A stretch of 64,000 nt of DNA from Aureispira anguillae (GTDB taxonomy: Bacteria; Bacteroidota; Bacteroidia; Chitinophagales; Saprospiraceae). A program made the position numbers and the translations under genes. Below, one piece after another: positions 19,736-64,000 of this stretch. Where the stretch lies: positions 4,025,716 through 4,089,715 of the forward strand of contig NZ_AP026867.1 of assembly GCF_026000115.1 (NCBI RefSeq), given 5' to 3'. The notes under the pieces are model-generated. The model ran no database searches, was not told where the DNA came from, and worked only from the letters and a program-made list of their open reading frames with translations. Numbering within the stretch: position 1 is the first letter of the stretch; each line of letters begins with the position of its first letter.

Positions 19736-19812
19736 GGGGGATTAGCTCAGTTGGCTAGAGCGTTTGACTGGCAGTCAAGAGGTCATCGGTTCGACTCCGA
19801 TATTCTCCACCA
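19736..19812 (+). tRNA. tRNA-Ala (anticodon GGC)
   Basis: A 77-base cloverleaf including an encoded CCA. The acceptor GGGGGAT pairs with ATTCTCC, including the G3-U70 wobble that is the alanine identity element. The D arm GCTCAGTTGGCTAGAGC, the anticodon loop CTGGCAG (GGC) and the T arm ATCGG-TTCGACT-CCGAT are all intact. Its 3' 15 bases are the attachment core of the following integrated elements. Confidence 0.97.
19796..19810 (+). repeat. attachment core (att, left end of element A)
   Basis: TCCGATATTCTCCAC, covering the 3' half of the T stem and the acceptor 3' strand of tRNA-Ala. The identical 15-mer recurs at 38660-38674 in front of the second integrase. Confidence 0.88.
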
Positions 19813-19818
19813 ACATAG

Positions 19819-19845
19819 ATAAACACTTGATTCTCAAGTGTTTAT
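19819..19845 (+). terminator. terminator after tRNA-Ala
   Basis: Perfect 12-bp arms ATAAACACTTGA / TCAAGTGTTTAT with a 3-base loop, followed by a T run. It lies inside element A and insulates the tRNA from the integrase gene. Confidence 0.85.
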
Positions 19846-19911
19846 TTTTCGTTTTAGACAATTCAATTTTTGCTTAATACTGTTGTATGAGAGTTTTGAA
19901 AAAAATTCAAC

Positions 19912-20961
19912 ATGATAACAGGAAAAAAAATTCTGCCTAAACTCCACGATTACGGAGGGAATACCAACAAACAATGGTTTATTCATTTTTACGATGACGA
20001 GGGCAAAAGAATCCGCATTTATAAAGGTATTAACCACCTCACTACTGCCAAGCAGCGACACGAAGCCGCTCAGCGCATTATTAAGCAAATACTACAAACT
20101 AGAAAAGGGCTCACCCACCAAAAAATTAAGGCTGCCATTATTGATGCCTTAGAGAATCGAAAACCTACCTGGAGAAAGAAAACGTATCAATGCAAAAAAT
20201 CTAAGATTTTTATCTTCCTGGAGTGGATGGAAAATAAAGATTGGATAGAAAAAAGCATCAAAGACTTTTTTCAATACCTGACCAATAAACATATCAATCC
20301 ATCTACTTACAATGATTATATTCTAAATGTAAGAAATGCCCTACAATGGATCGGAGAAGAAGACCTTATTAAAGACGTTCAGCGACGAAAGAAAAGCCCT
20401 GTACCAGCTGCTTATTTTACCAGGAGCCAAATTGATTATTTATCTAAGGTGATGAAAAATAAAGATCCTCAGTTATGGTTCTTTGTCCAATTTATATACT
20501 ATTGTTTTCTTCGACCTCGTACGGAGCTGCGCCATCTCAAAGTCGGTGACATTATGTTGGAAGATCAAAAAATTGTAGTGCATCCTGATATTGCCAAAAA
20601 TAAAAAGCTCCAGTATATTACTATTCCTGATGCCTTCTTTCCTGTTGTGCAAAAAAAGATTCAAGGTCGGAATCCTAATGAGTATCTTTTTGAAGGGAAA
20701 CAATACCTAAAACCAATGGGTGAAAATACAATGGGCGAACGTCACCGTTTACTACTCAAAGAGCTGAGTTTTGATACCAAACGCTATAAAATGTATTCTT
20801 GGAAACATACGGGCGCTGTGATGGCGGTTAAGGCTGGTGTCCATGTGAAGCAATTGCAAATTCAATTGCGCCATCATTCATTGGATCAGGTGGACGAATA
20901 CTTGAGACAATTGGGCGTTTCTGATTTGGGGGATTTACGGGCTAATTTTCCTGGTATTTAA
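19912..20961 (+). CDS. tyrosine recombinase (integrase of element A)
   Basis: 349 residues, 101 bases from the att core. The N-terminal arm-binding region and SAM-like core-binding domain (about 80-165) are followed by the catalytic domain: RPRTELRHLKVGD (Arg I), NKKLQYITIPD (Lys), SWKHTGAVMAVKAG (H-x2-A box), LRHHSLDQVDEYL (His and catalytic Tyr). Proximity to the tRNA-end repeat and the close relation to the integrase at 38795 show it is the enzyme that inserts the element in tRNA-Ala. The C-terminal 60 residues are nearly identical between the two, consistent with a shared target. Confidence 0.92.
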   Translation: MITGKKILPKLHDYGGNTNKQWFIHFYDDEGKRIRIYKGINHLTTAKQRHEAAQRIIKQILQTRKGLTHQKIKAAIIDALENRKPTWRKKTYQCKKSKIFIFLEWMENKDWIEKSIKDFFQYLTNKHINPSTYNDYILNVRNALQWIGEEDLIKDVQRRKKSPVPAAYFTRSQIDYLSKVMKNKDPQLWFFVQFIYYCFLRPRTELRHLKVGDIMLEDQKIVVHPDIAKNKKLQYITIPDAFFPVVQKKIQGRNPNEYLFEGKQYLKPMGENTMGERHRLLLKELSFDTKRYKMYSWKHTGAVMAVKAGVHVKQLQIQLRHHSLDQVDEYLRQLGVSDLGDLRANFPGI

Positions 20962-20966
20962 AATGA

Positions 20967-21001
20967 ACAAGCTCCAAAGGATAATTTCCTTTGGAGCTTG
21001 T
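20967..21001 (+). terminator. terminator after integrase A
   Basis: Perfect 15-bp arms ACAAGCTCCAAAGGA / TCCTTTGGAGCTTGT and a T run. It also separates the integrase from the convergent minus-strand operon. Confidence 0.9.
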
Positions 21002-21035
21002 TTTTTATATTTCAATACAATAATAGCTCGCCTAA

Positions 21036-21434
21036 TTAGTTACTATACTTTTCGTATAATTCCTTTGCACGCTTCTTAATATTTTCCTGTCGTACTTTAG
21101 CAGTCCCTTTTCGTAGCTTATATTGAAATTGATCCTTTTCTTGGAACAAATAATACTTTGCAGCAGCATAATAAACCCAATCTTCATAATGAATATTATA
21201 ATTATTACAATCTACCTCAAAATCCTTATTTTGAGTAATAGGCTGAAGCTTGCTTCGCACTTCTGCAATACCTAAAACAGTAAATCCCTTACAAATTAGA
21301 ACTAGATCACCAATTGAATAATACTGATTTCGCTTAGTATCACTTAGTACAATTTTTTTCTTTTCAATGAAAGGTAAAAAAGGCTTTTGACCAGTTCCCC
21401 ATTGGATTCCAAGTTTCCAAATTTTCTTTTTCAT
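21036..21434 (-). CDS. hypothetical protein following the R-M operon
   Basis: 132-residue protein not firmly recognised. The beta-rich middle YSIGDLVLICKGFTVLGIAEV resembles EVE/PUA-like modified-base readers, and the basic C-terminus (KKRAKELYEKY) could bind nucleic acid. It begins 62 bp after hsdR on the same strand, so it may be an accessory of the R-M system. The fold assignment is a guess from pattern only. Confidence 0.55.
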   Translation of the reverse strand: MKKKIWKLGIQWGTGQKPFLPFIEKKKIVLSDTKRNQYYSIGDLVLICKGFTVLGIAEVRSKLQPITQNKDFEVDCNNYNIHYEDWVYYAAAKYYLFQEKDQFQYKLRKGTAKVRQENIKKRAKELYEKYSN

Positions 21435-21496
21435 TTAGTTTTATATCTGAATATTTACGCTAATCTTAAGTATCTAAAATCAAAACAACCTGCATT

Positions 21497-24325
21497 CTAA
21501 ACCCCACGAAAAAAGCGCTCTACAAAATCCAAAACCTTATCCAAAACACGCTCTCCCGTTTTTCTGAATTGTAGCAATTTAGGGCGCACCTCCATTGTTT
21601 TGACCACTGCATCCACCAAAGGAACACGACCTGTAAACATATAATTATCAATTAGCTCCTGTAATTTATTGGGCTTGAGCTGCTCCGCTTCGCACAAATT
21701 AGCAAATGCTTGGCGGCGTTCTGTATTCCAAAATTCCTCAAAAGCGGTTGGAATGTCGTTGGTATTGCTAATATTAGGCAAATTCTCCAGGATAAATTTT
21801 TCGATCAATTCCTTTTTGCTGCGCAGTTGAATTTCACCCGACAATAAATCAATAATAGTTTGCTGTTTCTTTCCTCTTTCTGTTCCTTTTGTTTTTTGCA
21901 ATTCAGCCAATAAGCGCAGAATATAAGCCACATTAACATCATCTCGATGAATCAACTCCAATGCAAAATCTACATCATCCAAAATAGACACCTTTTCTTT
22001 TTGGCGTTGTGTCTTTTGATAAATATCTAAGTATTGGCTTTTGTAATCTTCAAACTCTTGTTGCCCCATGTCCAAGTCCTCAAAACTAAAATCTGCCAAA
22101 ATGCTCATGGTGTTTTTGACTCGCATCAATTCCCGAAAAGCTTTGACAAATTCCAATTCTTCGTCCTCACTGGGTAAGTCGTGAACTGAATCAACCGTTG
22201 GAGCAATATCCTTAAGCTGCTCCAGAGCTGCATTGAATTTTTCCACATAGTTTTCATAAGGCTGCATTATAATAACCTCTTTGGCATCCTTATTTGAAAA
22301 CAATTCAATTGCATTATCCGTCGCTTTTTTCAGATTGCGAAAAACAACAATATTACCTTGTGATTTTTTGTCGCCTATAATTCTATTTGTACGAGAATAA
22401 GCTTGTATTAAACCATGATATTTTAAATTTTTATCTACAAATAAGGTGTTGAGCCTTGGGCTGTCAAAACCTGTTAGAAACATATTCACAACCAATAATA
22501 AATCAATCTCTCCATTTTTTACTCGTTGGGAAATGTCTTTGTAATAGTTGTAAAAAAGCTTACTATCTTTAGTATTATAAGAGGTATTAAAATATTGATT
22601 GTAATCTTCTATAAACGCATCTAACTTTTCTCTATGATGCGCCGTTTTATAGGCATTGCTCGGCTCTGCTACTTCTCCATAGGTATAAAAACCGTCTGCA
22701 TCTCTGTCTTTTTCATTTGCTCCATAACTAAAAATAGTCGCCACTTTTAAATCGTGTTGCCCTGCTTCCCTTTTGGCTTTAAATAGCTCATAATAGCTAA
22801 TCAATGTATCTATACTAGACACGCAAAACATGGCTGTAAACTGCCTGTTATGTGTTTTTCGGGCATGGTTAGCTAGGATATAATCCGCAATCTTTTCCAA
22901 GCGCTCAGGCGACTCCAAGAGTTCCTTGGTATCAATGTCCTCAACTTCTATATCAATTTCATTTTTAGAGCCTTCTTTTTCTCGGTATCTACCAACATAC
23001 TCAATGCTAAATTTTAATACATTCTCATCTTTTATGGCATCAACAATGATGTATTTATGCAAACATTTTTCAAAAAGTTCTGCGGTGGTTCGTTTGCCTA
23101 AAGCGTTTTTTATGGCATTTTTAGCAAAGATGGGCGTTCCTGTAAAGCCAAACAATTGGCTATTTTTAAAAAAGTTTTTTATTCTTAAATGCGTTTGCCC
23201 AAATTGGCTGCGGTGGCATTCATCAAAAATAAAAATCAGACGTTTGTTTTTTAGCCCTTCCATTTGGCTCAAATAACGCTGTTTTTCGATGGCATTATTG
23301 AGCTTTTGAATGGTTGTAACAATCAGTTGTGTATCATCTGTGAATTGTGTAACTAACTTTTTGGTATTATCTGTGCCATCCACACTTCCCTTAGAAAAGT
23401 TGTTAAATTCTTTCATCGTCTGATAATCCAAATCTTTACGATCTACGACAAAAATAACTTTGTGAACCTGTGGCAAACGGGTTAAAATTTGACTGGCTTT
23501 AAAAGAGGTTAACGTTTTGCCTGATCCTGTGGTATGCCAAATATAACCATTTTTAGTACTGTCTTTTACTCGTTGTATAATTGCCTCAGTTGCATAGTAT
23601 TGATAAGGTCTTAAGACCATCAATATTTTTAGTCCTTCATTTAGGACAATGTATTGGGTTAGCATTTTAGACAAATGGGCTGGCTCCAAAAAAGCGGCCG
23701 TAAAATCTTCTAAGCGATGGATTCTTTTATTGGCTTCATCTGCCCAATAAAAGGTTTGTTTAAAGGTCTGTTTTTTATTGTTGGCAAAGTATTTTGTATT
23801 GATTCCATTGCTAATGACAAAAATTTGTACGTACAAAAACAAGCCCTCAGATGCGCCATAAGAATGGCGTTGATAACGGTTGATTTGATTGAAGGCTTCT
23901 TTCATTTCTAAGCCTCTACGTTTCAACTCTATTTGTACCAGGGGCAAGCCATTCACCAACAAGGTAACATCATAACGGGTTTTGTATTTTCCCTCCATGC
24001 TAACTTGTTGGGTGACTTGAAACAGGTTTTTGCTCCAATCGTAAGCATCTATAAAACTCAAATACAAGGTATCGCCATTGTCTCGAGCTATGGTCACTTT
24101 ATCCCTTAAAATCTTTGCTCGTTTAAAGACATTGCCTTTGTTTAAGTGGTTCAAGACTCGCTTAAATTCTGTCTCGGATAACTGGACTTGATTAAAGGTT
24201 TCTAGCTGCTTTTTGAGGTTGCTCAATAGGCTGGCTTCGTCTCGTATAGGAGCAATGCTGTAGCTCATGCTCTTGAGTTGGGCTACCAGCTTATCTTCTA
24301 AGATTTGTTCGGGTTGATGTGCCAT
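21497..24325 (-). CDS. hsdR: type I restriction enzyme R subunit
   Basis: 942 residues, the motor/nuclease subunit of a type I system that cleaves unmodified DNA after ATP-driven translocation. The PD-(D/E)xK nuclease is at Asp119 and ELK 133-135; the helicase Walker A TTGSGKT is at 265-271, DECH at 368-371, and FGFTGTPI follows as motif III. The C-terminal part is helical and contacts the methylase. The gene is last of hsdM-hsdS-hsdR; a 15-bp gap separates it from hsdS. It appears intact. Confidence 0.95.
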   Translation of the reverse strand: MAHQPEQILEDKLVAQLKSMSYSIAPIRDEASLLSNLKKQLETFNQVQLSETEFKRVLNHLNKGNVFKRAKILRDKVTIARDNGDTLYLSFIDAYDWSKNLFQVTQQVSMEGKYKTRYDVTLLVNGLPLVQIELKRRGLEMKEAFNQINRYQRHSYGASEGLFLYVQIFVISNGINTKYFANNKKQTFKQTFYWADEANKRIHRLEDFTAAFLEPAHLSKMLTQYIVLNEGLKILMVLRPYQYYATEAIIQRVKDSTKNGYIWHTTGSGKTLTSFKASQILTRLPQVHKVIFVVDRKDLDYQTMKEFNNFSKGSVDGTDNTKKLVTQFTDDTQLIVTTIQKLNNAIEKQRYLSQMEGLKNKRLIFIFDECHRSQFGQTHLRIKNFFKNSQLFGFTGTPIFAKNAIKNALGKRTTAELFEKCLHKYIIVDAIKDENVLKFSIEYVGRYREKEGSKNEIDIEVEDIDTKELLESPERLEKIADYILANHARKTHNRQFTAMFCVSSIDTLISYYELFKAKREAGQHDLKVATIFSYGANEKDRDADGFYTYGEVAEPSNAYKTAHHREKLDAFIEDYNQYFNTSYNTKDSKLFYNYYKDISQRVKNGEIDLLLVVNMFLTGFDSPRLNTLFVDKNLKYHGLIQAYSRTNRIIGDKKSQGNIVVFRNLKKATDNAIELFSNKDAKEVIIMQPYENYVEKFNAALEQLKDIAPTVDSVHDLPSEDEELEFVKAFRELMRVKNTMSILADFSFEDLDMGQQEFEDYKSQYLDIYQKTQRQKEKVSILDDVDFALELIHRDDVNVAYILRLLAELQKTKGTERGKKQQTIIDLLSGEIQLRSKKELIEKFILENLPNISNTNDIPTAFEEFWNTERRQAFANLCEAEQLKPNKLQELIDNYMFTGRVPLVDAVVKTMEVRPKLLQFRKTGERVLDKVLDFVERFFRGV

Positions 24326-24340
24326 GTTCTAGGGTGTTTT

Positions 24341-25594
24341 TTATACAAACATTTGCTGTAATAAGCCTTTTTTGAATTGTTGGGTTTGGGCTAGTTGGGT
24401 TTGGGTTTGTTGTATTTTATCGTCTATGCTGCTTAGGAAATTGGCTATTTTTTGTTGTTCTTTATACACTGGTAGCTTGACTGTTATAGAGTCTAAACTA
24501 GCATTATTTAAAGTTATTCCTTTTGCTGCTTGACTTCCAAAAGATTTAACATTTATGGAACTTAAATAATAATACATATACTGGGTAGATATGCTATTAT
24601 CTTTCCATTTAAAATTACAAATAGCCTCATTTGTAAACATTTTAGATTGAATAATTCCTAATCGACCTAGAGTAAGTTTAAAACTCATAATAAGTGTTCC
24701 TTCTTTTAGCACTTGTTTTCCTTTTATTGCTATATCTGTAATCTTTTTTTTAGTATCAAAAATATATTTCCCTTGCCTCATATCAGCAATTGAGAGCCAT
24801 TTATTTGTTCCCTTCCAATACTTAGAATCCTTAGTCGATGGAGTAAAACCTTTACCTATTATTGCTTTTTTACCTAAACTAGAAACCTCCCAATCCACAA
24901 ACGCTTCCCCATTATCATCCTTAAAGCGGATTTGTTGGCTAAAAATTTGCTGCATCACGCCTTTTTTATAGTCTTCTAAAAGGCTTACTTTTTGGCGGAG
25001 CTGTTCGATTTTTTTGTCTACGGAGGATAGGAAGTTGGCTATTTTTTGTTGTTCTGGGAGCGTGGGAATATTTACTTTTAATTTAGCAAATGTTTGCTGA
25101 CCTAATGTTTTGTTCCTACCCGCTCCTCCAGGAGATGCTAAACCTAATAGATATTTACCTCTTTTTCTTAGAAAAAAATACATAAGAAAATCTAAATCAA
25201 CTTTATTTTTTATAGGTTCATACATTGGGAAACGATGTGAAGCAATCATTCCTAACTCCTTTTCTGTTGTTCTTGCAACTGCATGTTCCCAAGCAAATAC
25301 AATATTAACAATGAACATATTAGGTTGAACCCAAAAGACTCGCTTATTACCTAAAGATTTTCCTGTAACATGTTCCTTATAAAAAATGCCTTTTCCATGT
25401 GAGCGAATTCCAATTTGTTGATAAAGAGTTGTTGCTTCAACATCTACAGGCTTAGAGACCCTATTTATAATTTCTTCTATTAAAATAGATGTCCAACTAT
25501 CAGTAAATTCTAAAAATCGTAATAATGGAAATTTAGTTTTCTTTATTTTTTGCTTAACGGTATTCATTCGTTCTATATTAAAATGGAGTATCAA
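24341..25594 (-). CDS. hsdS: type I restriction specificity subunit
   Basis: 417 residues with two target-recognition domains (about 20-165 and 225-360), each followed by a helical conserved region: EQQKIANFLSSVDKKIEQL and EQQKIANFLSSIDDKIQQT. This defines a bipartite DNA target, whose sequence cannot be read from the protein. The start overlaps hsdM by 17 bp; an internal ATG at 25567 is the alternative. The two helical repeats are encoded by near-identical DNA (24435-24461 and 25029-25055, one mismatch in 27), which can mediate domain exchange. Confidence 0.93.
   Translation of the reverse strand: MILHFNIERMNTVKQKIKKTKFPLLRFLEFTDSWTSILIEEIINRVSKPVDVEATTLYQQIGIRSHGKGIFYKEHVTGKSLGNKRVFWVQPNMFIVNIVFAWEHAVARTTEKELGMIASHRFPMYEPIKNKVDLDFLMYFFLRKRGKYLLGLASPGGAGRNKTLGQQTFAKLKVNIPTLPEQQKIANFLSSVDKKIEQLRQKVSLLEDYKKGVMQQIFSQQIRFKDDNGEAFVDWEVSSLGKKAIIGKGFTPSTKDSKYWKGTNKWLSIADMRQGKYIFDTKKKITDIAIKGKQVLKEGTLIMSFKLTLGRLGIIQSKMFTNEAICNFKWKDNSISTQYMYYYLSSINVKSFGSQAAKGITLNNASLDSITVKLPVYKEQQKIANFLSSIDDKIQQTQTQLAQTQQFKKGLLQQMFV
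24435..24461 (-). repeat. intragenic hsdS repeat, distal copy (partner at 25029-25055)
   Basis: 27-bp direct repeat with one mismatch to 25029-25055, 594 bp apart, both within the conserved helical regions of hsdS. Such repeats are the usual recombination points for swapping or duplicating half-specificity domains. Confidence 0.85.
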
Positions 25595-27167
25595 GGTTTA
25601 ATTCTTTACAAAAAGCGCCAATAATTTCATCTGAATTTTGAATATCTTTATTAAGAGCCTTTATTTTTTTTGATACACTTGATAAATCTACTACCTCTTC
25701 CTCTTCAAACGTATCTACATAGCGAGGAATATTAAGGTTATAATCATTCTCTATAATTTCCGTTATAGGAGCTACATAACTGTACTTATCTTCTATTTTT
25801 CGATTTCTATAAGTTTCTATAATTTTATTAATATCTTCTTGCCTTAGAACATATTGATTAGTTGCTTTTTCATACCCCTGGCTGGCATCAATAAATAAGA
25901 TGTTATCCTTATGCTCCCTATTTTTCTTAAACACTAGAATACAAGTCGGAATATTTGTCCCATAAAAGATATTGGCAGGCAAGCCAATCACCGCATCCAA
26001 GTAATTACAAGACTCAATCAAATAAGTACGAATCAAACCCTCCGCAGCACCACGAAATAAAACCCCATGTGGCAAAACAATTGCCATGGTACCGTCCTCA
26101 TCCAAATGATGAATCATGTGTTGCACAAAGGCAAAATCTGCCTTGGACTTAGGCGCTAGCTTTCCATAAGCGGCAAAACGATCATCATTATTATGCAAAG
26201 GATTTGCCGACCACTTGGCAGAAAAAGGAGGATTGGCCACTATTGCCTCCGCTCTTAAATTAAGGTGTTGGGGCTGCTCGAGGGTATCTTCTTGTTTGAT
26301 GTCAAATTTACTATAATGAACATCGTGCATAATCATATTCATACGAGCCAAATTGTAGGTCGTACGATTCATTTCTTGCCCATAAAAGGTAGAGACTTGT
26401 TTCACTTCCTTAGCCACTCGCAACAACAAAGACCCAGAGCCACAGGTCGGATCATAAACCGATTTTAATTTTGTTTTGCCCGTGGTTACAATCTTAGCCA
26501 AAACCATAGAAACCTGTTGAGGGGTGTAAAATTCCCCTGCCTTTTTTCCTGCACCACTGGCAAACTGACCAATTAAATATTCGTAAGCATCTCCCAAAAC
26601 ATCTGCCTCCGTATCTTCCAATTTAAAATCAATCTTATCCAAATGCACCAACACCTTAGCAACTAAGGTATTTTTATCCTTTTCGGTACGTCCTAGCTTG
26701 GTAGAAGTCAAGTCCAAATCTTCAAACAATTGTTCAAAGTCGTCCTCGCTTCCTGCTCCCATGGTGCTCTGTTCAATACTCCGCAAAATAGCGGTCAAAT
26801 CTTCTAATATAAAATTGCTTTGCGTGGTTGCTTCCTCGTCTTCAGCTTGAGCAGCTCCACGCATGGCGACTTGGTGAAACAATTCACTAGGCTTTAAGAA
26901 AAAGCCCAACGTTTCTACCGCTTCCACTTTGATTGCCTCTAAATATTCTTGTCCTTCTGGGCTATCTTCTTCAATTTTTGTGTATTCTGTTATGTCTTCT
27001 TCAGATAACAAACGATTGGCATACAGATGCATTTTTTCAGACAAATACTTGTAAAAAATAAAGCCCAAAATATAATCTCTAAATTCATCTGCATTCATTT
27101 TGCCTCTTAGGGTATTGGCAATGTTCCAAAGCTGTTGCTCCAACTGTTTTTTGTGTTCTTCTGACAT
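25578..27167 (-). CDS. hsdM: type I restriction DNA adenine methyltransferase M subunit
   Basis: 529 residues. The helical HsdM N-terminal domain (1-150) is followed by the N6-adenine methyltransferase core with DPTCGSGSLL at 239-248 (SAM-binding motif I) and NPPF at 312-315 (catalytic motif IV). It modifies the two half-sites chosen by HsdS and protects the host genome. First gene of the hsdMSR operon, preceded by an operator-like region at 27257-27325. Confidence 0.95.
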   Translation of the reverse strand: MSEEHKKQLEQQLWNIANTLRGKMNADEFRDYILGFIFYKYLSEKMHLYANRLLSEEDITEYTKIEEDSPEGQEYLEAIKVEAVETLGFFLKPSELFHQVAMRGAAQAEDEEATTQSNFILEDLTAILRSIEQSTMGAGSEDDFEQLFEDLDLTSTKLGRTEKDKNTLVAKVLVHLDKIDFKLEDTEADVLGDAYEYLIGQFASGAGKKAGEFYTPQQVSMVLAKIVTTGKTKLKSVYDPTCGSGSLLLRVAKEVKQVSTFYGQEMNRTTYNLARMNMIMHDVHYSKFDIKQEDTLEQPQHLNLRAEAIVANPPFSAKWSANPLHNNDDRFAAYGKLAPKSKADFAFVQHMIHHLDEDGTMAIVLPHGVLFRGAAEGLIRTYLIESCNYLDAVIGLPANIFYGTNIPTCILVFKKNREHKDNILFIDASQGYEKATNQYVLRQEDINKIIETYRNRKIEDKYSYVAPITEIIENDYNLNIPRYVDTFEEEEVVDLSSVSKKIKALNKDIQNSDEIIGAFCKELNLDTPF

Positions 27168-27256
27168 TATTTGTTTTTAGTCCTTAATTCCTCAAAACGT
27201 TTCTTATTTCTATTGCAAGAAATCTAACAAATAAAAATCATATTGTAGTTATTATT

Positions 27257-27325
27257 ATTAAAAAAGTGTGCAAACTTTTTTAATAAAGTTCACACACTTC
27301 TTAAATAAAGCTTACACACTTTCTA
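27257..27325 (-). promoter_or_regulatory. operator-like inverted and tandem repeats upstream of hsdM
   Basis: 27257-27284 is an inverted repeat with perfect 11-bp arms (ATTAAAAAAGT / ACTTTTTTAAT) around GTGCAA. It runs into two 22-bp tandem units (27282-27303 and 27304-27325) matching at 18 of 22 positions and sharing ACACACTT. The location, 90 bp before hsdM and beyond the previous operon's terminator, suggests control of restriction-modification expression. No dedicated C-protein gene is adjacent; one of the element's HTH proteins could act here. Confidence 0.55.
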
Positions 27326-27333
27326 AATAAAAA

Positions 27334-27357
27334 AAGCCACCTCAAATGAGATGGCTT
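27334..27357 (-). terminator. terminator of the conserved element-A block
   Basis: AAGCCA / TGGCTT outer arms, inner CTC / GAG, loop AAAT, followed on the minus strand by a long T run. It separates the phage-like gene block from hsdMSR, showing that the R-M system is an independent transcription unit. Confidence 0.8.
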
Positions 27358-27388
27358 CAAAAAAATACAAATCCAATAAAACTATACA

Positions 27389-27820
27389 CTAACTATCGCT
27401 TTTATGTTCCCCTACTTTATCAAATACAGATTGTTCCTGGTACGCATTTAAAATTCGCTTACGCTGCTTTTTTTCAACCTTCGATAGTTTCCTTGGTTTG
27501 TAATTGGTATTTAGTTGAGGTTGAAAGAAATTTCTTAAATAGATGTATGTCATTGTTGACATATAGATATGAGAGCTGGTCAATATTTCAAAACTAAAAT
27601 CTTTATTAGACTCCTGTACTAGCTTGCCTTGGCTCTGAAATAAGCGCATTATCGTACAATATAAGTTGATACTTCTACCAATGTACAAAACCTCCTTTTC
27701 CCCTTTTTTACGAATTAAAAAAATACCTGCTATGGCTCTAAATCTGCCGAGCTGTTCTTGTTCAATTGGTTCATGGACGGTTATTGTATTTGTCTCTATT
27801 ATTCTAAGTGGCTCATTCAT
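27389..27820 (-). CDS. GIY-YIG-like domain protein (element A copy)
   Basis: 143 residues. AGIFLIRKKGEKEVLYIGRS (about 30-49) is a GIY-YIG-type N-terminal half, and the FFQPQLN segment near 108 corresponds to the family's C-terminal helix. The Glu that normally binds metal in that helix appears to be replaced (TYIYLRNFFQP), so nuclease activity is doubtful. The basic C-terminus (KLSKVEKKQRKR) is kept in the homologue at 57864-58286. Function in the element is unknown; conservation in both elements suggests a core role. Confidence 0.65.
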   Translation of the reverse strand: MNEPLRIIETNTITVHEPIEQEQLGRFRAIAGIFLIRKKGEKEVLYIGRSINLYCTIMRLFQSQGKLVQESNKDFSFEILTSSHIYMSTMTYIYLRNFFQPQLNTNYKPRKLSKVEKKQRKRILNAYQEQSVFDKVGEHKSDS

Positions 27821-27824
27821 TTTA

Positions 27825-28277
27825 TTACAATTTTACGGTTTTTATAAAATCTTGGAGGTTCACTAGTTCGCTATTCGTTGACGTTATTTTGTGCAACTCT
27901 AATTTTTGCTTTCGATTATAGCGAATCAACATATAATCTTTTTGAAGCATAGAAATAAACAGCGCTTCCATTTTAGACCCTCCCAACTGTGCTAAAATTT
28001 GCTTCTTTAATAAATCAGGTGCTTGCTCCAGCTGTGTTGTTAGCATCTCACTAAAAAACGCTCCAGCATCTAAGCAATAAACCTCTTTGGCTTGCGCTGT
28101 AATTACCTGACCAATTAGTTTGCCTTCTGCTACTTTAAACAATAAACTCAGTCCATAAGCAGAAATGTTTTGCTCTTTTGAAACATAAGCTAACAACTCC
28201 CCTGCCTTGCTCATTAAGTCTTGTTCTATGACTGGTGCTTGTGTCTTCAGATGATTTTCTAAAATTGTTCTTACCAT
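27825..28277 (-). CDS. conserved element protein, 150 aa (element A copy)
   Basis: Unrecognised. It is homologous to the 153-residue product at 58290-58751: both start with a short helix containing charged residues, share the GxxxF-type central segment, and end with a similar pattern (MLIRYNRKQKLELHKI versus LLLKYNEEDELDTYKM). No membrane helix. It lies 4 bp before the GIY-YIG-like gene; the pair is linked in both elements. In B a packaging-ATPase gene precedes it, here that gene is absent. Confidence 0.7.
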   Translation of the reverse strand: MVRTILENHLKTQAPVIEQDLMSKAGELLAYVSKEQNISAYGLSLLFKVAEGKLIGQVITAQAKEVYCLDAGAFFSEMLTTQLEQAPDLLKKQILAQLGGSKMEALFISMLQKDYMLIRYNRKQKLELHKITSTNSELVNLQDFIKTVKL

Positions 28278-28326
28278 ACTATTTTTGTGATGTGTGATTT
28301 ATAAATGATTGGCGGTTCTAACTCAG

Positions 28327-29587: not shown

Positions 29588-29594
29588 AAAAAAA

Positions 29595-29762: not shown

Positions 29763-29888
29763 CCGCTCAACTTAGTTCCCTACAACAAATATATTAGGCA
29801 CTCTTCAGATATAAAAGAATTTTTGTCCTAGGGCTTGTATTTTATAGCGTAATCGTAAACAAACATTAATTATACGATCATTTCTTAT

Positions 29889-30233: not shown

Positions 30234-30282
30234 GTTTTTTAAAGTATTTGGTTAAATAGTAAAATATCCCATAAGAGTAGAA

Positions 30283-30369: not shown

Positions 30370-30399
30370 TATGTTTTTTTTAAGATAGCTGTAACGCTC

Positions 30400-51049: not shown

Positions 51050-51094
51050 GCCTTCGCTATTTTTTGGTTAGAAAATTAGTTGCTAATCCCTCAA

Positions 51095-57863: not shown

Positions 57864-58286
57864 TCATTCTTTTGCCTTTTCTTCATCACTTTTATGATCC
57901 CCTGTTGATGACTCAAAAAAAGAATGTTGTCGATAATAGGTTAATAATCGTTGTTTTTGCTGGCGCTCATTGCGGTTTAACTTTGGAGGCAGGTACAGGG
58001 TATTTTTACTCGGTTGCAAATGATTGCGAAGGATCTGAGTCACCTTTTTGGCTCGATACAAACTACACAGCAGCAATTCAAAACTGGCTTGTTTGATTTC
58101 GTACTCCTCCAAAGGACCATCTTTATTAAAATAGCGACAACAACAATCATAAATATCCCTAGCCCAGCCCACATAAAGTACCTGGTCTTTTTCCCGAATG
58201 ACAAAAACACCCACTTGCCCCCGATAACGCCCCAGCTTTGTTTTTGGCATTGGCTTTAATAATTCTATGTCAGCCCCTCCTATCAT
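57864..58286 (-). CDS. GIY-YIG-like domain protein (element B copy)
   Basis: 140 residues, homologous to 27389-27820. VGVFVIREKDQVLYVGWARD is the GIY-YIG-like half. The C-terminal helix VTQILRNHLQPSKN again lacks the catalytic Glu at the expected place, so the change is shared by both elements and ancestral. Basic tail KLNRNERQQKQRLL. Confidence 0.65.
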   Translation of the reverse strand: MIGGADIELLKPMPKTKLGRYRGQVGVFVIREKDQVLYVGWARDIYDCCCRYFNKDGPLEEYEIKQASFELLLCSLYRAKKVTQILRNHLQPSKNTLYLPPKLNRNERQQKQRLLTYYRQHSFFESSTGDHKSDEEKAKE

Positions 58287-58289: not shown

Positions 58290-58751
58290 CTACAATTCGA
58301 TATTGGCAATAAATTCCTCCCAATCCAATAGCGTTTGCTCCCCTTCTTCCATCTTGTAGGTATCCAATTCATCCTCCTCATTATACTTCAGTAATAACCA
58401 ACAGTCCTCCAATAGATTTAATACAATGGTATTCACTGAATCCCCCGCCATCATTTTCTTCACCCAACCCTTTGCCATTTTAGGAACCCCTTTTAGGCTT
58501 TCTTCAAAGGTTTCTATTATTAATCCCGTCATATCAATCGTCCGCAGGGCTATATCCTCCCAATGAACGATTGCCTTTACCTCCTTGCCTGATCGTCGAA
58601 TATGGATGCTCATATCAAAGGGTGGTAAGGCTTCTTGTGCAGAGGTTTCATCCATCAAGGCTTCAAAATTATTCAACACTACTTTTGCCACTTTAGGCGC
58701 TTCTTTCTTCAATTGCTTTTCTAACTGACTTTTTACTAGATTTTCTATCAT
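58290..58751 (-). CDS. conserved element protein, 153 aa (element B copy)
   Basis: Homologue of 27825-28277, unrecognised: FDMSIHIRRSGKEVKAIVHWED followed by a long helix and the ending LLLKYNEEDELDTYKM. It lies 3 bp after the packaging-ATPase gene and 3 bp before the GIY-YIG-like gene, in the same order as in element A except for the ATPase. Confidence 0.7.
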   Translation of the reverse strand: MIENLVKSQLEKQLKKEAPKVAKVVLNNFEALMDETSAQEALPPFDMSIHIRRSGKEVKAIVHWEDIALRTIDMTGLIIETFEESLKGVPKMAKGWVKKMMAGDSVNTIVLNLLEDCWLLLKYNEEDELDTYKMEEGEQTLLDWEEFIANIEL

Positions 58752-58753: not shown

Positions 58754-59416
58754 CTATTTGCTTTTATAAGCGGTGTACGTTAATCGTTTTTGGTAAACAT
58801 CTAGGGTGTAATAAGAATATTGGGGGGCATCTTGTAGGACTTGCCAAGCTTCCATTAGCGCATCAAAACAGGGAATCACATCTCGTTTGCCAATGGGGGG
58901 TGGGTTGATCGTTCTAAATAGGCGAACATGGGTTAATAAGCCCCAAGCTTGACGAGGAAAATATTGAGGATCGTGGGAGGCTAATGCCAACCAAACATCG
59001 GAGTGTTTGCATCGGGAGATCACGGCTCGTTCTACCTGTGTCAGATTACTATTTAGAACTGCTGTAGCATCGTCTATCATCAAAAAAGCGTGTTTGACAT
59101 TGGTATTCATCGCTGCTACTTGAACATAAAATAGCTGTAAGATCTTATTCTCAAAAACCGTTGCTATCTTCACACACTTATTTCGAAATAGCTTCATAAA
59201 ATTCGTGGCAAACAACAGCTTTTTCCCTTTATAACTGAAGTAGAGTTTCCCCTTCTGCTCAGAAAGTTCTATGGCTTCATAGCCTTGCCAATCGGAGGCT
59301 CGTCCAAAATTATAGACAATTTTGGTTCGTTGTATTTCCCTAGCAAATTCTTCTAAATTATACGTTTTCCCAGCGTGCATTTGCCCGAAAGTCGCTAGGA
59401 CAAATGGCTTAGGCAT
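58754..59416 (-). CDS. genome-packaging ATPase candidate (A32/P9-like)
   Basis: 220 residues, no TM helix. Walker A at residues 11-18 (GQMHAGKT); Walker B ending in Asp115-Asp116 (FLMIDDA); a following sensor-like HSDVWLALASHDPQ. The size matches the FtsK-HerA-like packaging ATPases of membrane-containing tailless phages (PRD1 P9 has 227 residues). Inovirus Zot proteins are alternatives but are longer and carry a TM helix. It overlaps the preceding gene by 8 bp. Element A has no copy at this place. Confidence 0.75.
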   Translation of the reverse strand: MPKPFVLATFGQMHAGKTYNLEEFAREIQRTKIVYNFGRASDWQGYEAIELSEQKGKLYFSYKGKKLLFATNFMKLFRNKCVKIATVFENKILQLFYVQVAAMNTNVKHAFLMIDDATAVLNSNLTQVERAVISRCKHSDVWLALASHDPQYFPRQAWGLLTHVRLFRTINPPPIGKRDVIPCFDALMEAWQVLQDAPQYSYYTLDVYQKRLTYTAYKSK

Positions 59417-60359
59417 AGATAATATTTTTTATTTCGCTACTCTTTTTTCCTTCATCTATTAATTTCTGCACTTCTGGTGAGGGATAATCCTCTGCATATT
59501 TTACCTCTGTATATTCCCCTTCTGTATTATATAAATAGGAGCCATTGGCGTGAACCTTAAAGCGGGTTCGCCCCTTTTGATACTCTTTGGTTGAACGATA
59601 GTCGGTTTGTGCTTGAGGGACTGTGCTCGCCGCTGCCTTTTCTGGCAAAACTCGATTCTCCAAATCGGGCTGGGTGTACTTTCTAAAGGCTGCTAAACCC
59701 AAAGAAGGTCCTATCATCATTGCCAAGGCCAATAAAAACGCCTGGGTTGGTGTGGGGGCTTTCAGCTCCTTGCTCTTTAGCAGTTCTTGAGTCGCTTCAA
59801 AAAACATTTTTTTCACCTTCTTATCCGCTGCATATTCTGACTTCTGACCTCCTCCTATTGCCACACATAAATTGACCTTCATTTCATCCAAAAAGTCCAG
59901 TCCTGTTTTGCCCCATTCCTCCAACTTATTTTTATAGTCCTGGCTCAGCTCTTTTTTGGACTGAATTAGCGGCTCCTTTATTTGGTCCTGCTCTGCCATT
60001 TTGCCTAAAGGGTCTGAGTCCATTTCTTCCTTGGCAACAGCGGGTTCGGTTGCTGTTTTTTCAGCATTTTCCAGTTTTTCTATTCCTTTTTCTGGAATTT
60101 TTTCAACATTTTCCAGCGTTTTTTCCGAGGCTTCTTCTATTTCTTCCACCTCCCTTTCTAGCAGGGTTTCCAGTTTTTTTTCTGTTTTTTCTAATTCTTT
60201 TTCAGCATTTTTTTCTAGCCTTTCCTCCTTTGGTTCCAAATCGTTTTGCATTGCTTCCCCCTGCTCCTTCCCTAGTGCTTCTAGGGGATCAAAATCGCTG
60301 ATTGCCTCGGTTACCATTTCCGTTTCTTTTCCAGGGGATTGGTTCTCTTGCTCCATCAT
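59409..60359 (-). CDS. acidic coiled-coil membrane protein (element B copy)
   Basis: 316 residues, homologous to 28327-29337. An acidic Glu/Lys coiled-coil half (1-135), CVAIGGGQKSEYAADKKVKK (about 165-185), a TM helix (about 206-225, QAFLLALAMMIGPSLGLAAF) and a C-terminal domain with KEYQKGR, HANGSY and a final IIYA. The conserved C-terminus suggests a specific partner; gene adjacency points to the packaging ATPase or virion membrane. Confidence 0.7.
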   Translation of the reverse strand: MMEQENQSPGKETEMVTEAISDFDPLEALGKEQGEAMQNDLEPKEERLEKNAEKELEKTEKKLETLLEREVEEIEEASEKTLENVEKIPEKGIEKLENAEKTATEPAVAKEEMDSDPLGKMAEQDQIKEPLIQSKKELSQDYKNKLEEWGKTGLDFLDEMKVNLCVAIGGGQKSEYAADKKVKKMFFEATQELLKSKELKAPTPTQAFLLALAMMIGPSLGLAAFRKYTQPDLENRVLPEKAAASTVPQAQTDYRSTKEYQKGRTRFKVHANGSYLYNTEGEYTEVKYAEDYPSPEVQKLIDEGKKSSEIKNIIYA

Positions 60360-60601
60360 AATGATTCTATGGTTTTAATGATTAATTTTAGTTCGTTGAT
60401 CGTGCCATAAATATGATGCTGAACCATCAAATTGATTCGAATTTCAAGCTCATTTGTCGCCGCTTTTGCCTCTTGGATTACGCTCCTATGCTCTACTTGT
60501 TTTAAGGCCTTAATTCGCTGCTGTAATAAGTCAATTACAACAGATTTATCAATCGATTGATTCGGCTTATATTCATCGCTTCTATACTCTCCTTTTGCCA
60601 T
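60356..60601 (-). CDS. small conserved element protein, 81 aa (element B copy)
   Basis: 81 helical residues, homologous to 29327-29587 (shared core IDKSVVIDLLQQRI). Its 3' end overlaps the next gene by 4 bp (ATGA), as in element A. Confidence 0.65.
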   Translation of the reverse strand: MAKGEYRSDEYKPNQSIDKSVVIDLLQQRIKALKQVEHRSVIQEAKAATNELEIRINLMVQHHIYGTINELKLIIKTIESL

Positions 60602-61852: not shown

Positions 61853-61889
61853 AAGTTCTTCCTTTTTTATCCTTTGATTATGAATATTT

Positions 61890-62486
61890 TTATTGCTCTG
61901 CTCCTACTGAAGCAGCTCGTTCTAGTGGATTTATGGGATAGCGAAATTGAGTCCAATGCACCAATTTTAAACTCAATTCATTTTGCTTGGAATCCAAGGG
62001 TAAAAAATAGTCCAACAAAGCCTCCATCGAAGCAAAGCCATCATTTCTAGCCAATTCCTCCAATACAAAATTATTGTTGAGCGGCAGCCAATACTCCTTG
62101 TCATTGGATAGGGCTACGCTATAAGCGCCCCCTGCTTCAACGGGCTTGCTCAGCTTAACATATTGGATCGCAATCACCCTTCTAGCTGGACAAAACTCAA
62201 CCGCTGTAGATTTTGTTTTCATCAACAAAAATTCTATTTCATCCCCTACTTTTATGGGACTTTTTTGGCTTCTTAAACTGTGGTACTTGGGTGGAAAGCG
62301 GCGAAAACGATCCGCTACAGAATTCATAAATGGTTGGATCTGCTGCGCTCTTACCATGTTATTGTGCCATTCTTTGATCTCCTTTTTCTCTTGAGGTCCT
62401 TTGGCATAAATGTACAGCCCTGCTAATATCTTTTCCGCAAAGCCTGTTGCTTCCCCCTTAATTGTTTTTTCAAATTTTAGTTTCAT
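61890..62486 (-). CDS. ASCH/PUA-like domain protein
   Basis: 198 residues. The centre IKVGDEIEFLLMKTKSTAVE with ARRVIAIQYVKL, and the later ARNDGFASMEALLDYF, are the usual ASCH-like pattern (strand, strand, then DGF-SxEEF helix). ASCH domains bind or process nucleic acids. Common in phages. Confidence 0.65.
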   Translation of the reverse strand: MKLKFEKTIKGEATGFAEKILAGLYIYAKGPQEKKEIKEWHNNMVRAQQIQPFMNSVADRFRRFPPKYHSLRSQKSPIKVGDEIEFLLMKTKSTAVEFCPARRVIAIQYVKLSKPVEAGGAYSVALSNDKEYWLPLNNNFVLEELARNDGFASMEALLDYFLPLDSKQNELSLKLVHWTQFRYPINPLERAASVGAEQ

Positions 62487-62543
62487 GTTTACGACTTGTT
62501 TTGATGATAAAATAATAATTGAGGGGGCTGTATCTTTTGGGGC

Positions 62544-62858
62544 TTATTCTGGAGCTTTAATTTTTAAATGGTGTTCTTCTGTTATTGCTTCTAGTTCCTT
62601 TTTTGCTTTTTCCAATTCATCTATTAAAGTATTGATCTTATATAAGGTATTGTATTTGCCCTCTGGGCTTCCAAACTCGCCATGCAACAACGCTCGATTG
62701 TTACAATCGCTTATTGTTATTTGACAATCGTAAGAACTTCCCTTTTTATTGACATCTCCATACATACGGATTCGGATATAAGCTCCTCCATCATTTTCTG
62801 GACAGTTTAATAAGGCGATGGAATTGTAGTTTATTTTTTTTGTTTTTCGCTTGCTCAT
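62544..62858 (-). CDS. hypothetical protein, 104 aa
   Basis: 104 residues; a basic start, then a beta-rich core (GGAYIRIRMYGDVNKKG) and a long C-terminal helix. Unrecognised small early-block protein. Confidence 0.55.
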   Translation of the reverse strand: MSKRKTKKINYNSIALLNCPENDGGAYIRIRMYGDVNKKGSSYDCQITISDCNNRALLHGEFGSPEGKYNTLYKINTLIDELEKAKKELEAITEEHHLKIKAPE

Positions 62859-62885
62859 TGCTCTTGATTTATGGTCCTTACTTGT

Positions 62886-63119
62886 CTAGCCTACCTCTCC
62901 TTTTCTATTATAGGGTTGATTGATCTTTAATCCTTTTCTGTAATAATCTCCTCTTTTAAATTCCCAGCGCACTCCAGCACTTTTACCCTCTGTTATTAAG
63001 AGCGAATGGATTTCATCCAACCGCCTTATTACACTTGGATCAATAAAACGACTGTCTTTTAGTTGATCTTTGAGCGTTTGCCACTCCTCCAAAAGTGCTT
63101 GTCTTTTTTCTTTGTTCAT
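62886..63119 (-). CDS. hypothetical protein, 77 aa
   Basis: 77 residues; two helices (ALLEEWQTLKDQLKDSRF and VIRRLDEIHSLLI), then a basic strand. Its start overlaps the stop of the primase-helicase gene by 4 bp, so it is coupled to it. Unrecognised. Confidence 0.55.
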   Translation of the reverse strand: MNKEKRQALLEEWQTLKDQLKDSRFIDPSVIRRLDEIHSLLITEGKSAGVRWEFKRGDYYRKGLKINQPYNRKGEVG

Positions 63120-64000
63120 GATCTTCTACCTTTTTGTTTTTTAAATTGATTCACCTGCTGACTGGCTGCCGCCCATTCCTGCTCACTTAGGGAAATTGTT
63201 TTTGCGGGCTCTGGTTCCTCCATCAGATTTAGACCCAATTTCTCGTAATCAAAGACAAAGGCAGATGTATTTTTCTTCCCAAAACGAACCGCTTTTTTAG
63301 CCGCTATAAACGTATGATGGGATCTTAGGTAATGTAGTAAAGAGGTTCTATTTAAGCCCTGCTTACCATACTGGCTGTGGTGTTTTTCTCGGTACAAAGG
63401 ATAAGCCTTACTAAAAGAGATATACAGCAATAGCTTTGAGGGATGTTCCTTTGAGCCCTGTTTGATTAGATAATCCTCTCCATGTTTGAGGTATTGAGAA
63501 ACCGCCAAATATTCAACCAAAGACCAAAAGACCGACACCTCATTTTCATTGCTGATTTGTCGATTTTGCTCAAATAGATTGTCGGCGCAATTGTGAAATA
63601 TGGCATCTCTACTGAAGGGAAATTCTAGGCTATCTTTTAAGGATTCATACACCGCTAATAAGATGCTGTTGTTTTCTATCATTCGAGAAGAAACCCCTTC
63701 CGACTGGCAATGATTTCTCAGCTCAGCAAAAAGCTGGTTGTAGTTATCCAAAAAACGTTCTTCTATAATTGGGCGCAAGGTGCTCAGCTCTGCCGTGATC
63801 CCCGACAAGCTCCCTCGCAACGACTTTAATTGCTCCGCTAGATTCTTCTCTGCTTGGCTGTATTTTGTCTTCGAAAAAGACAAGGTGATACAACGGGTAA
63901 ACAGCGCCACATCTGCGGTTGGTAATTCTTGTCCAACCAATACTGCCGTGGAATAGATCTTTGTCTTTAAATTCTTAGTCGTTGACTTTTGACCTCGTTC
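63116..64000 (-). CDS. primase-helicase of element B, C-terminal part (cut by window edge)
   Basis: The frame is open to the window edge, so this is a partial gene of at least 294 residues. It aligns with the C-terminal third of the element A primase-helicase: VGQELPTADVALFTRCITLSF versus the same segment in A, then SLRGSLSGITAELSTLRP and the ending FGKKNTSAFVFDYEKLG. The Walker A and zinc finger would lie outside. An apparent TTG start at 63940 is not real. Confidence 0.85.
   Translation of the reverse strand, partial: ERGQKSTTKNLKTKIYSTAVLVGQELPTADVALFTRCITLSFSKTKYSQAEKNLAEQLKSLRGSLSGITAELSTLRPIIEERFLDNYNQLFAELRNHCQSEGVSSRMIENNSILLAVYESLKDSLEFPFSRDAIFHNCADNLFEQNRQISNENEVSVFWSLVEYLAVSQYLKHGEDYLIKQGSKEHPSKLLLYISFSKAYPLYREKHHSQYGKQGLNRTSLLHYLRSHHTFIAAKKAVRFGKKNTSAFVFDYEKLGLNLMEEPEPAKTISLSEQEWAAASQQVNQFKKQKGRRS

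Follow-up and report, generated by a model that had tools for sequence, protein, structure and literature searches.

Capsid-less integrative elements of Aureispira as candidate satellites of tailless phages

Two integrated elements, here called A and B, lie side by side behind a tRNA-Ala gene in the chromosome of Aureispira anguillae. B carries phage genes, and A has replication and integration genes in common with it. What kind of element is A, and by which particles, if any, could it move? An earlier note on the window (the whole stretch of DNA analysed, 64,000 nucleotides) had proposed that A is a satellite of a tailless phage of the B kind. We examined this proposal by sequence comparison, gene trees and structure prediction.

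RESULTS

Two elements integrated at one attachment site

The 7.79-Mb genome contains exactly three copies of the attachment core CGATATTCTCCAC, all of them in forward orientation, and a reversed-pattern control gave no copy. The first (19798-19810) lies in the 3' end of a tRNA-Ala(ggc) gene detected with ARAGORN and Rfam (19736-19812, + strand), the second (38662-38674, +) belongs to both elements, where A ends and B begins, and the third is found past the window end, at 87988 in window numbering (C1:4113703). This count bore out the earlier claim that A and B have the same core. From the three positions, A spans 19798-38674 (18.9 kb) and B extends from 38662 to about 88000 (49.3 kb, 24 kb of it outside the window). 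It is doubtful that the whole 49-kb interval represents a single phage, since a relic A-like integrase and further cargo are present from about 73 kb (window numbering) onward.

A has genes in common with B and lacks the packaging ATPase

The earlier note listed six gene families common to A and B, and all six pairs proved to be homologous. By blastp, the tyrosine integrase of A (F1, 19912-20961, +; Pfam PF00589, E 4e-10) is 57% identical to that of B (38750-39847, +; E 3e-141), and the DnaG-type primase-helicase (F17, 30400-33591, -; recognized by Pfam, PHROG and NCBIfam) is 47% identical (E 0) to its B counterpart (63116-64000, -), which is cut by the window end and measures 1048 aa in L002:8832-11978. 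Similar results were obtained for an acidic 336-aa protein with one hydrophobic segment (F4, 28327-29337, -) and the 316-aa protein of B (59409-60359, -; 37% over 208 residues, E 2e-39), for the GIY-YIG-fold proteins of 143 and 140 aa (F2, 27389-27820, - in A; 57864-58286, - in B; 38%, E 2e-26), and for the proteins of 150 and 153 aa (F3, 27825-28277, -; 58290-58751, -; 19%, E 3e-12). For the 86-aa protein of A (F6, 29327-29587, -) and the 81-aa protein of B (60356-60601, -), blastp was silent, and the sole support is a profile of the 86-aa family that finds the 81-aa protein at E 1.3e-5. Moreover, two pairs not in that list were recovered, namely HTH proteins of 87 and 96 aa (F7, 34869-35132, - in A, also recognized by PHROG; E 4e-7) and repressors (F5; A has two repressor-like proteins, at 35585-35995 and 36263-36799, +; E about 1e-21).

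The packaging ATPase had been described as missing in A exactly between its conserved neighbours. Indeed, F4 and F3 of A are separated by 49 bp (28278-28326), as against 657 bp holding the ATPase in B. The distance was 47-49 bp in 5/5 A-type elements and 657-718 bp with the ATPase inside in 10/10 phage loci. We then searched the six-frame translations of A and its five relatives with profiles of 32 families built from phage members. No match below E 0.01 was obtained for 23 of the 32 families (capsid, membrane, ATPase, lysis and others), the lowest value of the ATPase profile being E 0.026. These searches, together with PADLOC, confirmed that A lacks the capsid, membrane and lysis block and carries a type I restriction-modification (R-M) operon instead, and they revealed no capsid or packaging gene under another name. 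Terminase was likewise absent from Pfam and PHROG scans of the A backbone proteins (for PHROG, those other than repressors and cargo).

The R-M operon (21497-27167, -) comprises HsdR (21497-24325, also identified by Pfam), HsdS (24341-25594) and HsdM (25578-27167). It lies on the same strand as the backbone and is preceded by a 221-bp gap and a terminator-like hairpin (27333-27358, -), which makes an independent transcription unit plausible; the hairpin, which separates backbone and cargo, is a consensus match only, and 18 such hairpins were observed versus 11.0 +/- 3.4 in shuffles.

The remaining backbone of A includes a 393-aa membrane protein (F10, 33614-34795, -), a 114-aa protein present in three of the A-types (F38, 29889-30233, -; A1, A3 and A4, A1 being A itself) and a stem-loop AAACAGGA...TCCTGTTT (29693-29767, -) that is a candidate cis-acting signal or RNA. 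F3, F4 and F10 gave no informative match in Pfam or NCBIfam. The family profile of F2 matches UvrC (1yd6, E 5e-8), and we considered this protein as a packaging nuclease; this role was discarded, as inspection of an alignment by eye showed another residue in A1-A4, B and P1 at the position of the catalytic Glu of UvrC. Finally, a cluster of TGTTGGA iterons (36915-37250, 11 copies in 500 bp) is the likely replication origin of A. Similar clusters (7-11 per 500 bp) occur in 6/6 A-types and in B and Q, with a maximum of 2 in Markov sequences (20 for each).

A belongs to a maintained family of six elements

A could be a domesticated or decaying prophage, i.e., a B-like phage that has lost its virion genes and is kept by the host for its R-M cargo. 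The presence of its genes and site in B would fit this reading, as would the true relics close by, since integrase pieces and phage fragments occur both inside and beyond the B interval. However, the integrase, primase and 336-aa genes of A are open frames devoid of internal stops, in agreement with the earlier statement that replication and integration genes seem intact. Moreover, six primases that are 77-100% identical to that of A were found in 2/9 genomes of the genus, representing two species, and all six lie within att-delimited elements of 13.6-18.9 kb. Integrase and repressors are present in 6/6 elements, and the nine backbone families are complete in five.

The exception is A6, which lacks F3 and F4 and carries an additional, broken integrase, a condition that favours decay; its primase reading frame runs for 1044 codons, and the stops (codons 1045, 1051 and 1060) fall right at its end. 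A decayed prophage should show broken or lost backbone genes and relaxed selection, neither of which was seen in A1-A5. Indeed, dN/dS was 0.08-0.35 in every comparison of A1-A4 with A5 for which dS was computable, and the replication, integration and F2/F4 genes are thus under purifying selection. Since the backbones of A1-A4 are 91-99% identical at the DNA level, the independent evidence amounts to two species.

In trees, A-type proteins formed groups of their own for primase (100/100; 6 rows versus 3 phages), F10 (100/100; 6 versus 4) and F4 (100/99; 5 versus 18). A single A-type group, which may nonetheless exist, was not recovered for integrase or repressors, and one origin was not borne out for F2, whose tree forces two changes across supported branches. 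Taken together, the trees and dN/dS values show that the A-types are a recurrent, maintained lineage, in two species, rather than the result of sporadic decay. The domesticated remnant is therefore weakened by a capsid-less architecture common to six elements of two species, by the groups restricted to A-types and by purifying selection; the cargo also changes while the backbone stays. We consider this explanation unlikely.

The cargo slot adjoins the integrase and holds type I R-M, an SMEK-STAND NTPase, a KAP NTPase, PIN/HNH genes, type I M and S, or type III R-M. Such cargo is defence-like in 5/6 elements; for A4 the match is confined to HNH and PIN domains. This raises the possibility of an interference island, for which PLE is the model, whose common genes would serve mainly to block phage, with transfer as a side effect. 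The stem-loop and F38 are compatible with it, being restricted to A-types and lacking a counterpart in the phage regions examined. Nevertheless, the defence cargo is generic, not evidently directed at these phages, and the mobility genes are kept, and we regard an interference island as very improbable. In A2, beyond the nine backbone genes, the non-overlapping ORFs of 50 aa or more are limited to a single cargo gene of 1303 aa and three ORFs of less than 70 aa, which leaves little space for a hidden capsid gene.

B and related prophages are predicted to be tailless

The protein encoded between the F3 and F4 counterparts of B (F16, 58754-59416, -) was modelled with AlphaFold, and as for the capsid candidate below, only the best of five models was good (pLDDT 76, versus 53-61 for the remaining four). 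With this model, the 15 best Foldseek matches in the PDB were all STIV/STIV2 B204 (E 3e-9, TM 0.64-0.73). The predicted fold thus corresponds to a B204/A32-type packaging ATPase, B204 being the motor of a tailless virus. The best model of F8 (51806-52531, -) had a pLDDT of 77 (other four, 53-66) and a pTM of 0.75. Its first 28 PDB matches were viral coat proteins, all of them weak: no E value reached 1e-3, the best being 3e-3, and TM did not exceed 0.42 among the first 20. One unnamed match in a viral model library fell below 1e-3. The model weakly suggests that F8 is the jelly-roll major capsid protein of B.

Next to F8 lie small membrane proteins of the virion block (47559-51722, -, including the 365-aa F14 at 49570-50667), which had no informative PHROG match, and lysis genes recognized by Pfam and PHROG (46595-47508, -; a GH19-like endolysin and an amidase). 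At least one hydrophobic segment was found in 13/16 tested B proteins (virion block and neighbours). PHROG scans that covered 33/63 ORFs of the B interval as well as 9 proteins of P1 detected neither terminase nor portal. The weak labels returned were tail fibre for a P1 endolysin (E 3e-4), minor head/DNA pilot for F19 in P1 (E 1e-5) and in B (E 6e-3), head maturation protease for a protein of 162 aa (E 3e-3), minor tail for the 316-aa protein (E 0.05) and head-and-packaging endolysin for 48358-48762 (E 3e-3). Judged from these genes, B-type phages appear to be tailless, and they probably contain a membrane.

Tblastn against 50,697 phage records gave no match for the ATPase, F14 and F8 (E up to 0.1) or for F4 and F10 (E up to 0.01). 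Scans of viral contigs with the ATPase (single sequence and profile), F4, F8 and F10 yielded no loci, one stretch having passed tblastn in one scan. The primase matched 611 of the phage records, the best being the tailed Cellulophaga phage Ingeline; the primase is thus uninformative on particle type.

A-types and prophages adjoin each other

The tandem orders are A1|B, A2|P1|A3|P2|A4 and A6|P3, so that a prophage with ATPase and capsid genes adjoins 5/6 A-types, at a common tRNA-Ala or ssrA site. Both genomes with A-types (G000 and G003) contain such prophages, with 9 ATPase copies each. Several observations count against a satellite: A5 has no phage alongside, two genomes (G002 and G008) have phages and no A-type, and tandem arrays can arise from a common integration site alone.

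An alternative is that A is an autonomous integrative element with a phage-derived replicon that moves free of virions (by transformation, vesicles or predation contact), with F2-F4 in another role, e.g., membrane-linked replication. A's own integrase, primase-helicase and iteron cluster are consistent with this idea, and so is the failure of the A-types to form one group in the F2 tree. In contrast, the retained F4-F3-F2 block flanks the packaging ATPase in all ten phage loci, and ATPase/capsid prophages both adjoin five of the six elements and reside in both genomes. Autonomy is about as improbable as the decaying prophage.

We also searched the non-coding DNA of six satellites and five phages for a common packaging sequence and found only attachment cores and short words (20, 8, 5 and 4 words of 10, 11, 12 and 13 nt, respectively, the longer ones being pieces of the attachment core); all counts exceed a mononucleotide shuffle (mean 0), a weak control. 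As a side observation, one of the ten-mers led to CRISPR arrays in P1/P2. Their 14 spacers had no convincing match outside the arrays in the sequences examined, the best being 18/19 nt in both A6 integrase copies (E 0.02) and a T-rich 15/15 nt at three loci (E 0.015).

DISCUSSION

We think it likely that the A-types are self-integrating, self-replicating satellites whose packaging relies on integrated tailless phages, either B-type or from its sister subgroups. The earlier proposal is supported as regards the satellite itself, and the helper need not be of the B kind: A2-A4 and A6 adjoin another phage subgroup (P1, P2 and P3) with a different replication gene. No single phage is obvious as partner, since F2 of A1-A4 groups with B/Q/S and relatives of F10 occur in other phages and are absent from B. 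A rule by which a satellite has half the size of its helper was dropped, as sizes vary.

Dependence on helper particles is what we infer from gene content. A carries F4 (a membrane protein), F3 and F2, a module whose phage counterparts lie on either side of the packaging ATPase. Upon induction, a satellite would excise and copy itself from its own origin; the B204-type ATPase of the helper would then pull its DNA into helper-made capsids, the satellite's F4/F3/F2 would serve as packaging-vertex adaptors, and helper enzymes would lyse the host cell. The defence systems in the cargo slot may pay for the ride.

P4-type satellites have their own integrase and primase-helicase and no capsid or lysis genes, obtain particles from a helper prophage and carry a defence hotspot, which was reportedly described by Rousset et al. 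A resembles them in replication, missing genes and defence cargo, with a helper that is putative. P4 itself has a tailed helper, encodes a capsid-size factor and is marked by alpha, psu, sid and delta, whereas the candidate helper of A is a tailless phage carrying a B204-type ATPase, no sizing gene was recognized in A, and A's backbone is common to its helper family. The only sequence similarity seen to P4-like elements is a general one in the primase. PICIs, cfPICIs and PICMIs act on tailed phages, and PICIs redirect packaging via the small terminase subunit, while in the scanned proteins of A no terminase was seen and F4/F3/F2 are suspected of redirecting packaging. Like A, as proposed, they are described as small bacterial elements using phage particles, PICMIs being presented as lacking capsid-remodelling genes (PMC10803314).

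Non-tailed helpers are described for RS1, a satellite of filamentous CTXphi that promotes expression of itself and its helper, and for archaeal-virus satellites, whose helpers are fuselloviruses; unlike the helpers proposed here, these are not icosahedral (PMC11389934). Charybdis comprises marine elements discussed as possible virus satellites; it is described as having a jelly-roll-like capsid candidate of its own, no known replication gene and a suggested tailed helper (PMC12324425), whereas in A the replication gene is present and a capsid candidate is missing. The open-licence literature that we searched mentions satellites of archaeal viruses and of filamentous phages, and none of an icosahedral tailless phage. 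B resembles STIV/PRD1-type viruses in the packaging ATPase fold and in the many virion-block proteins with a hydrophobic segment; it differs in that its capsid candidate is one weakly matched jelly roll, with no clear double jelly roll.

A bolder proposal, whose chances we see as evenly balanced, is that the A-types are the first satellite family of icosahedral, membrane-containing, tailless dsDNA phages, in which an own packaging-vertex module (F4/F3/F2) devoid of the ATPase would let a borrowed B204-type motor admit their DNA, perhaps marked by the stem-loop, to helper capsids, spreading exchangeable defence systems across the genus.

Most known phage satellites have tailed helpers, and a few live on filamentous phages or archaeal viruses. 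The phages described here form a temperate, apparently tailless group, represented by nine ATPase copies per genome in two genomes, with key proteins that matched no phage record searched. If tailless phages are also parasitized, it becomes possible to test how the FtsK/HerA-type (B204) packaging pathway is hijacked, and satellites and phages jointly name a few genes that possibly decide on DNA entry into membrane-lined capsids. The A-types would also add a carrier of defence genes.

A and B lie in tandem at one attachment core

In the 7.79-Mb genome that contains the window (C1:4025716-4089715), the core CGATATTCTCCAC has exactly three copies, which lie at 19798, 38662 and 87988 (window numbering). 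The first copy lies at the 3' end of tRNA-Ala-ggc. The candidate satellite A spans the first to the second copy (18.9 kb), and the adjoining phage-like element B starts at the second and runs out of the window. The proposal that both elements use the same attachment core was thus borne out, with CGATATTCTCCAC at both ends of A and at the start of B. Pieces of a third, broken phage lie beyond the third copy; these fragments past the last core (L003:14210-18138) comprise an integrase piece, the N-terminus of the capsid candidate, families F15 and F9 and the amidase family F21. In the part of the B interval that lies outside the window, we also observed a relic A-like integrase and, after it, a further type I restriction-modification (R-M) set (L002:18881-19051; L003:2497-13704). 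The same stretch holds two genes that we take to be DUF262-like and one presumably encoding a NACHT/pentapeptide-like protein, and is probably a broken further satellite or a cargo island.

A shares a backbone with B and lacks most phage families

Eight homologous gene pairs were found between A and B. They include all six collinear families claimed in the earlier note, namely, the integrase, the primase-helicase, the 336/316-aa membrane protein F4, the 150/153-aa protein F3, the GIY-YIG-fold protein F2 and the 86/81-aa protein F6 (the last by profile only), together with two pairs not listed there, an HTH protein and the repressors. Distant relatives of A's type I R-M genes were also found in the far part of B's interval. 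It had also been claimed that the packaging ATPase is missing from A between its conserved neighbours; indeed, F4 and F3 are separated by 49 bp in A, where B encodes a 220-aa ATPase. This gap measured 47 to 49 bp in five of five satellites versus 657 to 718 bp in ten of ten phage loci.

We then profiled 32 families from their phage members and searched the A-type elements (A1, which is A itself, to A6) in six frames at an E cut-off of 0.01. Nine families were present (integrase, F2, F3, F4, repressor, F6, HTH, the 393-aa membrane protein F10 and primase); the other 23 gave no match in this search, in which F3 and F4 were also absent from A6. Counting non-overlapping ORFs of at least 50 aa, A2 is made up of the nine backbone genes, a single cargo gene of 1303 aa and three ORFs shorter than 70 aa.

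Structural models of the B ATPase and capsid candidate

The best model of the B ATPase reached a pLDDT of 76 (the other four, 53 to 61) and a pTM of 0.66. Its best 15 PDB matches (E between 3e-9 and 4e-8, TM 0.64 to 0.73) were all to B204, the packaging NTPase of Sulfolobus turreted icosahedral viruses. For the 241-aa capsid candidate F8 (best model pLDDT 77, pTM 0.75; others 53 to 66), the first 28 PDB matches were viral coat proteins, which we take to be jelly rolls; these matches were weak, the best E being 3e-3 (no value reached 1e-3) and TM not exceeding 0.42 among the top 20. Comparison of F8 with a viral model library gave one unnamed match below 1e-3. Of the 16 B proteins examined from the virion block and its neighbourhood, 13 contain at least one hydrophobic segment. 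In PHROG scans, which covered 33 of the 63 B-interval ORFs and nine proteins of the prophage P1, neither a terminase nor a portal was detected; weak head and tail labels were seen.

A-type elements recur beside prophages

Among the nine genomes of the genus, we found six A-type primase loci (77 to 100% identical), confined to the window's own genome (G000, four loci) and G003 (two loci); G002 and G008 carry phages without A-types. In G000, A1 occupies tRNA-Ala-ggc, and A2 (14.2 kb), A3 (16.4 kb) and A4 (14.7 kb) occupy ssrA; in G003, A5 (13.6 kb) lies at tRNA-Ala-tgc and A6 (18.4 kb) at tRNA-Ala-ggc. Five of the six adjoin a complete-looking prophage, A5 being the exception, since A1 adjoins B, six copies of TCCCTCCAGCTCCACT bound the ssrA array A2-P1-A3-P2-A4, and three core copies bound A6 and the prophage P3 (25.9 kb). 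P1 (28.4 kb) and P2 (27.2 kb) both possess the ATPase, a capsid block and lysis genes. In A6, the intact integrase is accompanied by a second, broken copy (L034:5807-6343).

P1 and P2 each contain a CRISPR array with a 36-bp repeat between the capsid block and F9, with nine repeats and eight spacers in P1 (C1:4344180-4344801; L027:19181-19802) and seven repeats and six spacers in P2 (C1:4388544-4389023; L030:3545-4024). The last repeat of each array is degenerate, and all 14 spacers differ. The repeat gave 14 matches and none elsewhere in the genome, and no Cas1 was found in this genome (control positive in 9 of 14). No spacer had a convincing match in the sequences compared; the integrase copies of A6 gave the best one (18 of 19 nt, E 0.02).

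The backbone is under selection and the cargo is exchanged

A domesticated prophage remnant had been named as the alternative to a satellite. Between A1-A4 and A5, dN/dS was 0.08 to 0.35 wherever dS was computable, a comparison that leaves F3, F6 and the A1 integrase outside: 0.30 to 0.35 for F2, 0.27 to 0.28 for F4, 0.16 to 0.18 for F10, 0.08 to 0.10 for the primase, 0.12 to 0.19 for HTH and 0.09 to 0.11 for the integrase (A2-A4). Within A1-A4, values were 0 to 0.27 apart from two F3 pairs, of which one reached 0.81 from four changes and the other had four replacement and zero silent changes; F6 showed zero changes. The A-types are thus probably not a case of simple decay. DNA comparison showed a constant backbone among A1-A4 (91 to 99%) and a replaced cargo slot, occupied by a type I R-M system (A1), a SMEK-STAND NTPase (A2), a KAP NTPase (A3) or PIN/HNH genes (A4); the slot of A5 holds related M and S genes of type I but no R gene, and that of A6 a type III R-M system. 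A tandem 22-bp repeat of 3.4 copies (window 27258-27331) directly precedes the R-M operon in A and may be an operator or promoter region.

Trees were unrooted, with three phage rows for the primase and four for F10 and a long-branch warning, e.g., for the phage region S. Satellite-only groups were recovered for the primase (100/100) and F10 (100/100) with all six elements, for F4 (100/99) with the five that bear it and, with weak support, for F3 (72/95). Satellites were not recovered as one group for F2, integrase and repressors. Since such groups exist for some genes and not for these three, the satellite backbone looks old, yet with parts exchanged with phages.

Candidate cis elements

All six satellites have a TGTTGGA cluster close to their repressor end (7 to 11 per 500 bp, against a maximum of 2 per 500 bp in 20 Markov sequences each). 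It also occurs in B (11) and in phage Q (8), both with the same primase family. Counts were low (1 to 2) in P1, P2, P3 and phage regions S, U1, U2 and V, and T had 4, S, T, U1, U2 and V being stretches rather than delimited elements; S has the primase and lacks the cluster. The cluster looks like the origin used by this primase family. Upstream of F6, the inverted repeat AACAGGA...TCCTGTT was found in six of six satellites and in none of nine other regions, and it folds better than shuffled sequences (z of -3.0 in A1, -5.6 in A5 and -3.7 in A6). In a consensus fold of the wider stretch, both sides changed in 5 of 42 pairs, three of them within this stem (e.g., U-A to C-G and A-U to G-C); the overall covariation term was unfavourable (+3.5 kcal/mol), and four of the six sequences are near-identical. 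Judged from sequence, the stem may mark DNA for packaging, act as an RNA or regulate the F6-F4-F3-F2 block.

Distribution of the ATPase and F4

Of 100 genomes searched, four carry the ATPase, namely G000 (nine copies), G003 (nine), G008 (four, one a fragment) and G002 (two); the remaining 96 gave no match. The ATPase profile matched 1 of 395 genomes in the phylum, the window's own, and four loci in the species collection, all from Saprospiraceae. With the F4 profile, five genomes matched among 298 of the family and the identical five among 396 of the order, including G195 from outside the genus; F4 copies are undercounted because 5 to 7 candidates were scored per genome. Nothing usable matched in viral contigs and phage records. 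In G008 we observed a more distant phage (G008:C6; L066:3353-11311) that matches the ATPase, F2 and F13 weakly and the amidase F23 more clearly; it lies close to genes that are also neighbours of the tRNA-Ala-ggc site.

A likely satellite of tailless phages

In a search of open-licence literature, where subscription papers are mostly absent, we recognised no description of satellites of icosahedral tailless phages. RS1 is a satellite of the filamentous CTXphi and archaeal viruses also have satellites (PMC11389934), Charybdis elements are possible satellites of tailed viruses (PMC12324425), and episomal satellites of tailed phages are described (PMC13230959); PMC11630473 mentions satellites twice, both times in its reference list.

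The satellites have the primase in common with B, the ssrA site with P1 and P2, and F10 with P3 and others. Anatomy, recurrence, selection and tandem layout all support the reading put forward earlier, and we consider it likely that A is a satellite packaged by tailless helper phages. A would excise by its own integrase, and its own primase-helicase would replicate it from the TGTTGGA iterons. A helper ATPase would load its DNA into the capsids of the helper, F4, F3 and F2 of the satellite serving as putative adaptors, and the helper would lyse the cell.
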